Shown one piece after another: positions 1,518 to 30,684 of a stretch of 37,259 nt of DNA (the stretch's first letter is position 1; every line of letters begins with the position of its first letter). The notes beneath the pieces were generated by a model, which did not search any database, had not been told where the DNA came from, and worked only from the letters and a program-made list of their open reading frames with translations. The translations under genes were made by a program, and so were the position numbers. This DNA comes from Oscillospiraceae bacterium (GTDB taxonomy: Bacteria > Bacillota > Clostridia > Oscillospirales > Oscillospiraceae): NCBI GenBank assembly GCA_902767915.1, contig CACXJE010000011.1:1-37259 (forward strand), written 5' to 3'.

Positions 1518-1553
1518 CGCCGAGGCCGTATTGTTCGGAGGACTGCAAGCCGG

Positions 1554-1580
1554 GATTTGTCGAGCTCCGCTCGACAAATC
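1554..1580. repeat. 12-bp hairpin with TCC loop
   Basis: Arms 1554-1565 (GATTTGTCGAGC) and 1569-1580 are perfectly complementary around a TCC loop, 36 nt after the exporter stop codon. No T-tract follows on the plus strand, so it is not a standard intrinsic terminator. It directly abuts the heptamer/palindrome repeat beginning at 1577 and shares that family's 12-bp stem and three-base loop. Confidence 0.6.
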
Positions 1581-1672
1581 AATGAAAATATGAAACTATG
1601 AAAAAATGAAAAAATTATGGTATTTTCCATATCTCCGATATGGAAAATGAACCCCGATCTGCAAAACACAAT
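1577..1672 (+). repeat. Heptamer-flanked palindrome element, copy E1 (partial)
   Basis: A run of AATGAAA-like units (7-8 bp) leads into a 12-bp stem hairpin at 1622-1648 (ATTTTCCATATC, loop TCC, perfect complement), followed by a CCCGATCTG stretch. The hairpin and the preceding GT are identical to copy E2 at 11138-11279, which lies in the opposite orientation. The right-hand heptamer array is absent, so this looks like a left half. The 1518-1764 interval otherwise holds only the hairpin above and the promoter below. Confidence 0.65.
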
Positions 1673-11137: not shown

Positions 11138-11279
11138 AATGAAAGAATGAAAAAATGAAGAATGAAACAATGAAACAATTGAGGTGTCCCTTCGGGACGA
11201 ATTATAATCATTTTCCATATCGGAGATATGGAAAATACCCCAATTTTTTCATAATTTCATTTTTTCATTCTTTCATTCC
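11138..11279 (-). repeat. Heptamer-flanked palindrome element, copy E2 (complete)
   Basis: Read on the minus strand it begins immediately after the CoA-transferase stop codon. AATGAAA-like heptamers come first, then a 12-bp stem hairpin (11210-11236, loop GGA on the plus strand), then a core containing ATTCGTCCCG with a small GTCCC/GGGAC hairpin, then complementary TTTCATT-type heptamers. The hairpin equals that of copy E1. It occupies the whole gap between the CoA-transferase and the regulator's ribosome binding site. Confidence 0.75.
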
Positions 11280-15544: not shown

Positions 15545-15670
15545 ATAGGGATCAGGGAACAGGGAACAGGGAACAGGGAACAGGGAATAGGGAACAGGGT
15601 CGGAGTTTTGCAGATTGCAATCTGCAAAACACAATAAATTCTCAATTCTCAATTCTCACTTCTCAATTCC
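15545..15670 (-). repeat. Heptamer-flanked palindrome element, copy E3
   Basis: On the minus strand it starts directly after the TAG stop of the ParA-like gene. GAGAATT heptamers come first, then a perfect 26-nt palindrome at 15605-15630 (half GTTTTGCAGATTG), then CTCC, then an array of CCCTGTT-type heptamers (GGGAACA on the plus strand). The central 40 or so bases are the same as in copy E4. It fills most of the 198-bp gap before the ferredoxin-subunit gene. Confidence 0.78.
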
Positions 15671-17690: not shown

Positions 17691-17797
17691 TTGAGAATTG
17701 AGAGTTGAGAATTGAGAATTGAGAATTTATTGTGTTTTGCAGATTGCAATCTGCAAAACTCCACAATTATTCATTATTCACTATTCACTATTCACTG
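17691..17797 (+). repeat. Heptamer-flanked palindrome element, copy E4
   Basis: Begins 10 bp after the amidohydrolase stop. GAGAATT heptamers, TTGTG, the perfect 26-nt palindrome at 17734-17759 (same as E3), CTCCAC, then ATTCACT heptamers. It has the same orientation relative to the upstream gene as E2, E3 and E8. Confidence 0.78.
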
Positions 17798-17811: not shown

Positions 17812-17910
17812 ACCATGCTTCGCATGGTCCCCCTCCCCTAAAACTGCTTCGCAGCGTTAGGGGAGGTTTGGCCGCTTCCCTGGTGCCTGGTGCCTGGTGC
17901 CTGTTGCCTG
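17812..17910 (+). repeat. GC-rich hairpin cluster and GTGCCTG heptamer array
   Basis: Three structured pieces: ACCATGC-TTC-GCATGGT (17812-17828); CCTCCCCTAA (17832-17841) pairing with TTAGGGGAGG (17857-17866) around an inner CTGC-TTC-GCAG hairpin; and four 7-bp GTGCCTG-type repeats at 17882-17910. With copy E4 this leaves the 390-bp gap before pyrC almost entirely repetitive, apart from the promoter at 17999. Confidence 0.65.
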
Positions 17911-20066: not shown

Positions 20067-20962
20067 GCGTGAATCTCTGCGGTATAGAGCTGGACAACCC
20101 CGTGATCCCCGCCTCCGGCACCTTCGGCTACGGCTGGGAGTTCGCGGAATTATACGATATAAATATTTTAGGCAGCTTCTCCTGCAAGGGCACCACCCGG
20201 GAGCCCCGGTTCGGCAACCCCACCCCCCGGATCGCGGACTGCCCCGCCGGCATGCTGAACGCGGTGGGTCTGCAGAACCCCGGCGTGGACCGGGTCATCG
20301 ACACAGAGCTGCCGAAGCTGGCCCGGGTCTTCCATAAGCCCGTCATGGCCAACGTCAGCGGCTTCTCCCTGGAGGAATACGCCGAGACCTGCGCCAGGCT
20401 GGACCGGGAGCCCCAGGTGGGCTGGCTGGAGGTCAACATCTCCTGCCCCAACGTCCACGGGGGCGGCATGAGCTTCGGCACCGACTGCGGCCAGGCCGCC
20501 GCGGTGGTCCGGGCGGTGAAGGCCGTCACCACCAAGCCGGTGCTGATCAAGCTGACCCCCAACGTGACCGACGTGGTCTCGGTGGCAAGGGCCTGCGAGG
20601 ACGCCGGCGCCGACGGCATCAGCCTTATCAACACCCTGCTGGGGATGCGGATGGATCTGAAAACCCGGAAGCCCGTCCTGGCCAACACCATGGGCGGCTA
20701 CTCCGGCCCCGGCGTCTTCCCGGTGGCCCTGCGGATGGTCTGGCAGGTGGCCCACGCCGTCAAAATCCCCGTGGTGGGCATGGGCGGCGTCAGCTCCGCC
20801 GAGGACGTGCTGGAAATGCTGATGGCCGGGGCTGCGGCCGTAGAGGTCGGCGCCGCCAACCTGGTGGACCCCTGGGCCTGCAAACGCATCATCGAAGATT
20901 TGCCCGCCGCAATGGATCGATACGGGATCAGAACGCTAACTGAATTGAAAATTGAAAATTGA
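20054..20962 (+). CDS. pyrD: Dihydroorotate dehydrogenase, type 1B catalytic subunit
   Basis: 302 aa. FMN-binding TIM barrel with active-site Cys131 in LEVNISCPNVHGGG, early motifs NPVIPASGTFGYG and KGTTREPRFGNPTPR, and late motifs PVVGMGGVSSAEDVLEMLMAGA and VGAANLVDP. It makes orotate. The C-terminus is odd: after YGIRTLTE, the last residues LKIEN and the TGA stop are encoded by AATTGAA heptamers of repeat E5, so the repeat has replaced or extended the natural end. This probably does not affect catalysis. Confidence 0.95.
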   Translation: MGRLSVNLCGIELDNPVIPASGTFGYGWEFAELYDINILGSFSCKGTTREPRFGNPTPRIADCPAGMLNAVGLQNPGVDRVIDTELPKLARVFHKPVMANVSGFSLEEYAETCARLDREPQVGWLEVNISCPNVHGGGMSFGTDCGQAAAVVRAVKAVTTKPVLIKLTPNVTDVVSVARACEDAGADGISLINTLLGMRMDLKTRKPVLANTMGGYSGPGVFPVALRMVWQVAHAVKIPVVGMGGVSSAEDVLEMLMAGAAAVEVGAANLVDPWACKRIIEDLPAAMDRYGIRTLTELKIEN

Positions 20963-21112
20963 AAATTGTGGTATTTTTCAATTCTGCGAATTGAAAAATG
21001 ACTTCAAATCGTCCCGATCTGAGGGCAATTGACAATTGAAATATATCGGAGTTTTTCAAATTATAATTTGAAAAACACATTCATTTTCCACTTTCCATTT
21101 TCCATTTTCAAC
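20942..21112 (+). repeat. Heptamer-flanked palindrome element, copy E5 (two palindromes)
   Basis: AATTGAA heptamers overlapping the end of pyrD, a hairpin at 20973-20999 (ATTTTTCAATTC, loop TGC), a core with AAATCGTCCCGATCTG, a perfect 26-nt palindrome at 21051-21076 (half GTTTTTCAAATTA), then TTTCCAT/TTTCCAC heptamers to 21112. It has the same order of parts as E7. It forms the whole pyrD-pyrF gap except the last 40 bp. Confidence 0.75.
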
Positions 21113-21135
21113 TTGGTACGTACACAGTTTATAAA
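21107..21135 (+). promoter_or_regulatory. Weak candidate promoter before pyrF
   Basis: TTCAAC (21107-21112) and TATAAA (21130-21135) are spaced 17 bp apart, at the right edge of repeat E5. The -35 match is poor. Confidence 0.25.
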
Positions 21136-23934: not shown

Positions 23935-23989
23935 CAATTGAAAATTGAAAGTTGAAAATTGATAATTGATAATTGACAATTGGCAATTG
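23935..23989 (+). repeat. AATTGAAA-type heptamer array (E6, no central palindrome)
   Basis: About seven degenerate AATTGAA/AATTGAT/AATTGAC units directly after the pyrI stop and up to the purE ribosome site. It looks like an element that has kept only its heptamer array. It marks the boundary between the pyrimidine and purine genes. Confidence 0.65.
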
Positions 23990-25271: not shown

Positions 25272-25555
25272 AAAGGGAACAGGGATCAGGGAACAGGGAA
25301 CAGGGAATGTGTATTTCAAATTGCCATTTGAAATACGGATATCGAAATCCCACATCGTCCCGCTCGTGTTTATTTCATTTTCTTTTCCATATCGCCAGAT
25401 ATGGAAAACCCCACCCCTGTTCCCTCGTCCCTGTTCCCTGTTCCCTGGTACCGGAGATTGCCACGGCCGCAAGCGGCCTCGCAATGACGCAGCAGGCTGT
25501 TCCCCAGTCTCTATTCCCTATTTCCAACCCCTAACCCCATCCCCAATCCCTATCT
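25272..25555 (+). repeat. Heptamer-flanked palindrome element, copy E7 (two hairpins, long right array)
   Basis: GGGAACA heptamers (25272-25308), hairpin 25311-25336 (GTATTTCAAAT/ATTTGAAATAC), a core with CACATCGTCCCG, hairpin 25383-25408 (TTTTCCATATC, loop GCCA), then complementary CCCTGTT heptamers to 25448. A GGCCGC-AA-GCGGCC hairpin flanked by GATTGCCACG and CTCGCAATGAC follows, then degenerate CCCTATT/CCAACCC-type heptamers up to the purF ribosome site. With the previous hairpin it accounts for nearly all of the 370-bp purC-purF gap. Confidence 0.72.
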
Positions 25556-30574: not shown

Positions 30575-30684
30575 CAATTGATAATTGAGAATTGAGAATT
30601 GAGAGTTGAAAAGTTAATGTGTTTTTCAGATTGCAATCTGAAAAACTCCACAATTCTCAATTCTCACTTCTCAATTCTCAATTC
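30575..30684 (+). repeat. Heptamer-flanked palindrome element, copy E8
   Basis: AATTGAGA heptamers, AATGTG, the perfect 26-nt palindrome 30621-30646 (half GTTTTTCAGATTG), CTCCAC, then complementary TCTCAATT heptamers. Relative to E3/E4 the palindrome differs by one base in each arm (G-C pair to T-A pair), a compensatory change. It fills most of the purH-purD gap. Confidence 0.78.

Follow-up and report, generated by a model that had tools for sequence, protein, structure and literature searches.

The window, by which we mean the whole stretch of 37,259 nucleotides that was analysed, is contig C11 of a 2.23 Mb assembly that comprises 99 contigs and is 78% complete. Short gaps between its genes are occupied by elements built from tandem arrays and hairpins: in the gap between pyrD and pyrF, for example, the first array starts at the end of pyrD. 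The original prediction had listed seven such loci (1577, 11138, 15545, 17691, 20942, 25272 and 30575) together with an array-only copy at 23935, and all of them were found, the tandem arrays and hairpins being present at every coordinate named. Their parts are as follows, alpha and beta denoting the two core types described below:

1551..1650, + strand: hybrid unit with a left terminal repeat, octamer array at 1581-1615 and beta hairpin at 1622-1648
1554-1580: hairpin of the left terminal repeat of the 1551..1650 unit, GATTTGTCGAG..CTCGACAAATC
11138..11179, + strand: left (purine) array, period 8, AATGAAAA-like
11186..11198, - strand: small GC hairpin GTCCC-TTC-GGGAC of the beta core, with covariation
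11210..11236, - strand: beta hairpin, 12 bp with a 3-nt loop
11243..11278, + strand: right (pyrimidine) array, period 8
15547..15599, + strand: left array AGGGAAC, period 7
15605..15630, - strand: alpha palindrome, 13 bp
15637..15669, + strand: right array AATTCTC, period 7, not complementary to the left array
17691..17727, + strand: left array TTGAGAA, period 7
17734..17759, + strand: alpha palindrome, 13 bp
17766..17796, + strand: right array TATTCAC, period 7, not complementary to the left array
20942..20968, + strand: left array AATTGAA, period 7, starting at the pyrD end
20973..21026, + strand: beta-type hairpin (20973-20999) and TCGTCCCG core, a second cassette within the left array
21051..21076, - strand: alpha palindrome, pair 12 from the outside T-A (C-G in the orthologue of the same-genus genome G019)
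21085..21114, + strand: right array, TTTTCCA/TTTCCAC-like, period 7
23936..23989, + strand: array without hairpin
25274..25307, + strand: left array AGGGAAC, period 7
25311..25408, + strand: compound core with hairpin 25311-25336, TCGTCCCG spacer and hairpin 25383-25408
25415..25447, + strand: right array CCCTGTT, period 7, complementary to the left array
30576..30609, + strand: left array AATTGAG, period 7
30621..30646, + strand: alpha palindrome, 13 bp
30651..30684, + strand: right array CAATTCT, period 7, complementary to the left array

Neither the arrays nor the hairpins are matched by chance controls: 14 arrays of period 7 or 8 were observed in the window against none in any of 20 first-order Markov simulations, and 13 hairpins of at least 11 bp against none in 16 and one in 4 of the 20 simulations. 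A scan of the window over periods 4 to 15 returned ten arrays of period 7, two of period 8 and five of period 14, the last overlapping those of period 7, and arrays of no other period. The 7-bp period that had been described as constant thus holds at most loci, but gives way to period 8 at 1581-1615 and at 11138-11179/11243-11278. Likewise, most loci share a single architecture, but the locus at 1577 does not: it possesses a left array only, and in place of its right half stands one half of an alpha palindrome, the other hairpin type, at about 1655-1672. An additional period-7 array with the unit CCTGGTG, missing from the earlier description, lies at 17879-17910 beside the 17691 element.

Two core types, alpha and beta, recur among these elements. 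The alpha core is a 26-nt palindrome with little or no loop (consensus GTTTTTCAAATTG/CAATTTGAAAAAC), flanked on one strand by GT before and TCC after it in an alignment of 19 copies, whilst the beta core is a 27-nt hairpin with a 3-nt loop that is preceded by GGT in an alignment of 21 copies. Complete beta copies consist of this hairpin, a spacer, a small GTCCC-GAA-GGGAC hairpin (the TCGTCCCG motif) and then ACC; compound elements contain two hairpins some 30-105 bp apart. The core motif and second hairpin that had been noted at some loci correspond to the TCGTCCCG motif of beta cores and to the two hairpins of compound elements. Both alignments were picked by hand, the beta rows as near-full-length profile hits together with L279 (truncated hits such as 20966 being excluded) and the alpha rows partly from hairpin lists, which biases the latter towards pairing.

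The cleaner examination of stem covariation therefore comes from 96 copies that were anchored on the central 14 nt, with outer pairing not used to find them and with copies near a locus end or in identical context dropped beforehand. Here, outer pairs 1-6 were complementary in 84-88 of the 96 copies, compared with shuffled means of 48-75, while pair 7 was complementary in only 5 and pair 8 in 57 of 96: the stem ends sharply, with a retained mismatch just beyond it. In 80 copies outer pairs 1-5 were all intact, and these copies together display 13 different outer hexamers; the remaining 16 include partial, split and probably chance matches. Amongst 20 distinct beta copies, 8 pairs were changed on both sides (shuffled mean 4.3; none of 500 shuffles as high), with further pair types not exceeding the shuffles (410 of 500 as high), and the 19 alpha copies, picked in part as hairpins, showed 7 such pairs against a shuffled mean of 2.6. 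The change between the palindromes at 15605/17734 and that at 30621, with its matching change in the other arm, is real, and the proposed covariation of the palindromes is borne out by an excess of compensatory changes over shuffles in all three sets. Such changes could be explained by template switching between the arms as well as by selection.

Rules governing the arrays were derived from 124 distinct elements (131 clusters minus duplicates) that a profile based on sequence alone picked out; most of the loci searched had been retrieved through their similarity to the 20942 element and are hence biased towards array-bearing copies. The left flanks of these elements have period 7/14 in 78 of 122 cases, period 8 in 17, period 9 in 1 and no period in 26; the right flanks have period 7/14 in 88 of 123, period 8 in 15, period 9 in 0 and no period in 20. 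In control flanks, 229 of 235 displayed no period, 5 had period 7/14 and 1 had period 6. A scorable array on both sides was present in 71 of the 124 elements, and in this two-armed set two regularities are almost without exception: the purine-rich strand runs inward from both sides, such that the arrays converge on the core, in 70 of 71, and the period is equal on both sides in 70 of 71 (7/7 in 55, 8/8 in 15, 8/7 in 1). Convergence also dominates in the sampled part of the window's own genome (210,377 bases in 27 stretches picked around matches, so that densities are not genome-wide), where array pairs no more than 250 bp apart comprise 20 convergent, no divergent and 5 same-strand pairs. In named relatives with 77-79% pyrD identity, which probably represent other genera, all 8 neighbouring array pairs were convergent once arrays of at least 60% G+C had been excluded; these pairs have other units and other or no hairpins, and correspond to about five independent sites after orthology is taken into account.

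The arms of an element had been described as often complementary across the core, and this is what we observe: at least 15% of 5-mers are common to one arm and the complement of the other in 61 of 71 two-armed elements, and are not in the other 10. Sharing of 5-mers between arms within an element reaches 0.57 compared with 0.31 for permuted arms (maximum of 0.40 in 2000 permutations), and the arm duplex energy is -18.4 compared with -12.8 kcal/mol, the best of 2000 permutations being -15.2. The fold of 15547-15669 had suggested that pairing is kept even with unrelated arms; this was rejected, given that only one of the 10 unrelated-arm elements (L009) beats shuffles at the 5% level and only one (15599) ranks within the best 5% when compared against the arms of other elements. 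As nine of these ten pair no better than shuffled sequence at that level, a foldback stem is not required. Several relatives natively carry GAATTGA, a match to the commonest unit, where pyrD and dnaN end, and given this some arrays may have grown from local sequence.

Orthologous gaps were read at four of the eight sites in the window (20942, 23935, 25272 and 30575), the relatives with pyrD at 75-89% protein identity being mostly rumen or gut metagenome-assembled genomes (MAGs) of Oscillospiraceae/Clostridia. Gap extraction yielded 7 of 16 loci, the window's own among them, the rest being truncated or in reverse orientation; G005 and G006 were then included as well. The pyrD-pyrF gap measures 26 bp or less in 66 of the 78 named relatives that possess both genes; of the 12 longer gaps, one (L053) contains a period-7 array without hairpin, and none contains an alpha centre or a hairpin of at least 10 bp. 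Within the genus, G019 carries a simple alpha element at this site, G005 an array without hairpin and G012 neither, while the window carries a G019-like alpha element with a second, beta-type cassette inserted in its left array: this 20973 cassette, which is absent from G019, was either gained in the window or lost in G019. In the same gap of other genomes, L051:2427-2580 and L176 display three tandem repeats of about 55 bp with a GTAGCGGCGCACAGTGTGCGCC palindrome, and L070:3780-3930, from another lineage, three tandem repeats of about 50 bp. The inserts at 23935, 25272 and 30575 are missing from the orthologous gaps of G019, G012 and the named relatives shown, with no array seen at the 23935 site in G019, G012, L075 and L069. 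The 25272 element occupies the gap preceding purF, in which arrays are found in 3 of the 27 relatives with a readable purF start. These three, from other lineages (L064:6829-6952, L065:8280-8410 and L066:9871-10004), hold convergent heptamer arrays of different units and a GGCGGGC/GCCCGC hairpin in opposite orientations.

A single site with many states is the gap between the S4 gene and recF, readable in 22 of 24 loci: alpha-like elements are present in 5, a broken alpha element in 1 (G002), beta elements in 2 (G000 and G019) and arrays without hairpin in 2 (G021 and G004), with the gap being 21 bp or less in 10 and filled by other sequence in 2. The alpha core points one way in G012 and G016 and the opposite way in G005, G007 and the diverged G013. 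Around the beta element, G000 and G019 are identical over 235 of 240 bp (L020:3681-3920 versus L323), while their flanking genes here are only 78-84% identical; the first 110 bp of recF are 97% identical between the two, the corresponding figure being 74-88% for the 18 other loci that matched in full or in part (4 loci gave no match). Such a near-identical tract within genes of 78-84% identity suggests, judged from these alignments, that short-tract recombination has probably also carried elements from one species to another, and so the same site filled in two species can reflect recombination of this kind. A phylogeny was tried as a means of ordering the events at S4-recF and was abandoned, as it placed the window's own genome apart from G019, its nearest relative in pyrD: recombination thus blurs the order of events. 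In the flanks of the copies shown and in four empty-site comparisons no clear direct repeat was apparent as a target-site duplication, the junctions having drifted; for the butyrate-kinase copy an empty-site reading was rejected, since the G012 gap is unrelated sequence in which no target duplication is readable. The comparison of orthologous gaps proposed in the original prediction has hence revealed empty, filled and different states, but neither clean ends nor a target-site duplication. The gaps of close relatives do not simply hold unrelated repeats: the hairpin is shared with G019 at pyrD-pyrF and among G012, G016, G005 and G007 at S4-recF, and some gaps hold arrays alone.

The hybrid at the 1577 locus belongs to a separate group of copies. 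The stretch 1540-1660 has six further copies in the window's own genome at 92-100% identity, arrays included, and we read this identity in seven places as recent copying. The unit has imperfect 17-bp terminal repeats of the form AATCGGGATTTGTCGAG around a beta core with octamer arrays; it is in these that inverted repeats of the MITE type are found, whilst in the simple elements it is the arrays that form inverted arms (in 61 of 71). Six of the seven copies were viewed with their flanks (the window copy and those amongst L262-L267), one being cut by a contig end; the window copy is without its right end, and in three copies internal deletions affect the hairpin. GTAG-type repeats, too, can be bounded by a terminal repeat of similar form, and in L308 and L314 a terminal-repeat unit lies nested within an alpha-like palindrome, separating its two halves, with heptamer arrays alongside. 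Out of 20 terminal-repeat hits, the 10 loci viewed (about 320 bp each, from an incomplete genome) showed no autonomous element. The seven-copy unit is possibly a mini-element of its own, and with its own terminal repeats it may have been moved by something unrelated to the simple heptamer elements.

The elements are largely a feature of one genus. With the 20942 element as query, matches were obtained in the window's own genome and in 20 of 22 further genomes of the same genus, but outside the genus in only 2 of 16 (G027 and G038, one weak match each, E of about 3.5e-4), and there was no match in plasmid or phage records. Of 120 genomes sampled from the family, two contain an exact four-unit AATTGAR array: the window's own and one other with a single site, at which no facing array lies in the 500 bp viewed. 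No Rfam family reaches threshold in the window, and amongst the open-licence papers listed by the literature searches there was none on such elements in Oscillospirales.

Taken together, we consider it probable that these are non-autonomous foldback mini-elements of about 100-240 bp, in which a structured palindromic core lies between convergent 7- or 8-bp arrays; for the broader statement, that they are mobile foldback elements of a non-autonomous kind, our confidence is high. The hairpin and its conserved flanks would act as a signal that is processed as single-stranded DNA by an enzyme acting in trans, in the manner of REP or IS200/IS605 ends, although we put forward a transposase acting in trans on the hairpin only tentatively. 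The arrays would grow and shrink by slippage, and the arms would remain complementary either through copying of the whole element as a single palindrome or through templating of one arm by the other on foldback; as to how the arrays arose, we give arm templating or slippage about even chances. Array-only sites would mostly be remnants left after loss of the hairpin and one arm.

No autonomous relative or cognate transposase was found, and one candidate mobiliser was the RAYT (REP-associated tyrosine transposase), of which homologues occur in 17 of the 23 genus genomes (54 match rows). RAYT transposases are common and diverse in the genus (for example L020:1619-2116, - strand), and those read adjoin GTAG-type repeats. 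REPINs are short intergenic palindromes in inverted pairs with compensatory changes, and the GTAG/CGTC tags of REPs are unpaired, at least in the portions of the sources consulted (PMC3116915, PMC3733652); the compound elements described here likewise consist of two hairpins inverted relative to each other. Membership of the REP/REPIN class, with movement by a RAYT of the same genomes, would further agree with the correlation between RAYT and element matches (Spearman 0.67, n=23, falling to 0.45 after rank-based correction for genome size), but element counts per genome are "at least" values from incomplete MAGs, and genome size alone gives 0.59 (completeness -0.42), so that this correlation is a hint and not a link. 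RAYTs are present in all 11 genomes with at least 20 element matches compared with 6 of the 12 others, and AT-rich hairpins of the element type lie within about 1.5 kb of four RAYT loci: at L141 a beta element lies just upstream of the RAYT, the only one within 400 bp on each side, and those at L136, L142 and L150 lie further away. However, elements are dense here and such proximity may be due to chance, and all 23 distinct RAYT genes read by eye (about half of the 54 rows) adjoin GC-rich GTAG repeats. The aligned copies, 21 beta and 19 alpha, bear no GTAG tag where their stems end, and although CGTC does occur in the beta core, its GTC lies in the covarying small stem, whereas the published tags, as far as the consulted text goes, are unpaired. 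A 2013 survey of GTAG repeats lists Proteobacteria, Cyanobacteria, Chloroflexi and the PVC group, and its main text, in the version consulted, does not contain "clostridi" (PMC3733652). The RAYT was thus rejected as the mobiliser, given that copy number correlates but the genes read adjoin other repeats, and is retained as a rival that we regard as unlikely. Far more remote is the addition of arrays by templated terminal synthesis of a reverse-transcriptase or telomerase-like kind, which we judge highly improbable: the fixed period, the free sequence and the single strand polarity facing outward from the core would suit it, but no RVT_1 domain was found in the window's own genome (78% complete) despite its abundant elements, nor is a reverse transcriptase domain present in 3 of the 11 high-copy genomes, and a reverse transcriptase was rejected as the maker of the arrays.

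Two further readings dispense with mobility or place function at the level of RNA. Template switching would yield compensatory changes without selection, and there might be no mobile element at all, with the arrays arising by slippage from local sequence (some relatives have a native GAATTGA where pyrD and dnaN end, which matches the commonest unit) and the palindromes by quasipalindrome correction. This reading, which we hold to be a little less likely than movement by a RAYT, could draw on the over-representation of heptamers among bacterial repeats, for which polymerase slippage has been proposed (as cited in the part consulted of Rehm 2015, PMC4692102), but it does not readily account for the same 26-27-nt cores with asymmetric flanks at unrelated loci with unrelated units, or for a unit that is found with its arrays at 92-100% identity in seven places. 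Less likely again is a structured RNA under selection, acting as an mRNA stabiliser, processing site or attenuator between the genes of an operon: elements do lie between co-directional genes such as pyrD and pyrF, and their RNA folds exceed those of shuffled sequence, with z values of -8.6 (30576), -7.4 (11138), -5.3 (15547), -2.9 (25272), -2.8 (20942) and -2.6 (17691), but an inverted repeat is expected to fold whatever its role, there is no Rfam match, and presence at any given gene is erratic between species.

Where do the foldback mini-elements stand amongst known repeats? STRRs are heptameric repeats of cyanobacteria, and the likeness drawn to them is apt with respect to the tandem 7-bp units, but period 8 occurs on both sides in 15 of 71 elements. 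The accompanying statement that no named family fits was too strong, as the small dispersed repeats (SDRs) that Elhai et al. are said to have described in 2008 (Genome Res) from Nostoc punctiforme and relatives appear close in kind: these are reportedly intergenic hairpins, 21-27 nt in length, that show compensatory changes and commonly lie within tandem heptamers, with nested insertions and no known mobiliser. By this description, the present elements share cores of 26-27 nt with compensatory changes and flanks that are mostly of period 7; they differ in their convergent complementary arrays, 8-bp arrays and two-hairpin cores, which are not known to us from SDRs, and in a host that belongs to a Bacillota lineage and not to the cyanobacteria. 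Since the structural features are shared and the cyanobacterial host is not, we regard the element as like an SDR, not an SDR: by analogy, the SDRs of Nostoc seem to be the closest in kind, in another phylum. Foldback (FB) elements of Drosophila have inverted arms of short tandem repeats around a core; they are eukaryotic, far larger and made of different units, and serve as an analogy only. To our knowledge, there is no agreed origin either for the cyanobacterial hairpins in heptamers or for the heptamer arrays of several phyla. The GGGAATC heptamers of Xanthomonas, mostly intergenic, form 70 convergent pairs among 186 patterns in Xcc and 75 among 183 in Xac (Rehm 2015, PMC4692102); their period of 7 and convergent pairs fit the polarity seen here, but they have one heptamer motif with no shared hairpin core reported in the part of the source consulted, while here the unit varies and a core is usually present. 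The BrickBuilt MITE of Porphyromonas gingivalis, as described in the consulted part of PMC4596501, is intergenic and contains one array of a 23-nt unit between a leader and a tail: it also places a tandem repeat inside a miniature inverted-repeat element, whereas here two short-unit arrays form the arms.

Overall, the structure is real and well ordered and, in our view, mobile over evolutionary time. We believe that the inward-purine rule with matched periods is new here, as are the exchange of core and orientation at one orthologous site together with nesting, and the occurrence of such elements in a gut Bacillota lineage. It is also conceivable, although rather doubtful, that they represent a class of foldback DNA whose ends are set by period and strand polarity and not by sequence, and whose cores can be swapped, inverted and nested. 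If this were true, the class would be widespread and mostly unseen, given the convergent pairs in other lineages of the order and in Xanthomonas. The genus itself offers many related genomes in which the same sites are empty, hold arrays alone or carry other cores, and it is such series of sites that allow comparison to address which events came first, what polarity contributes and what mobilises the elements.
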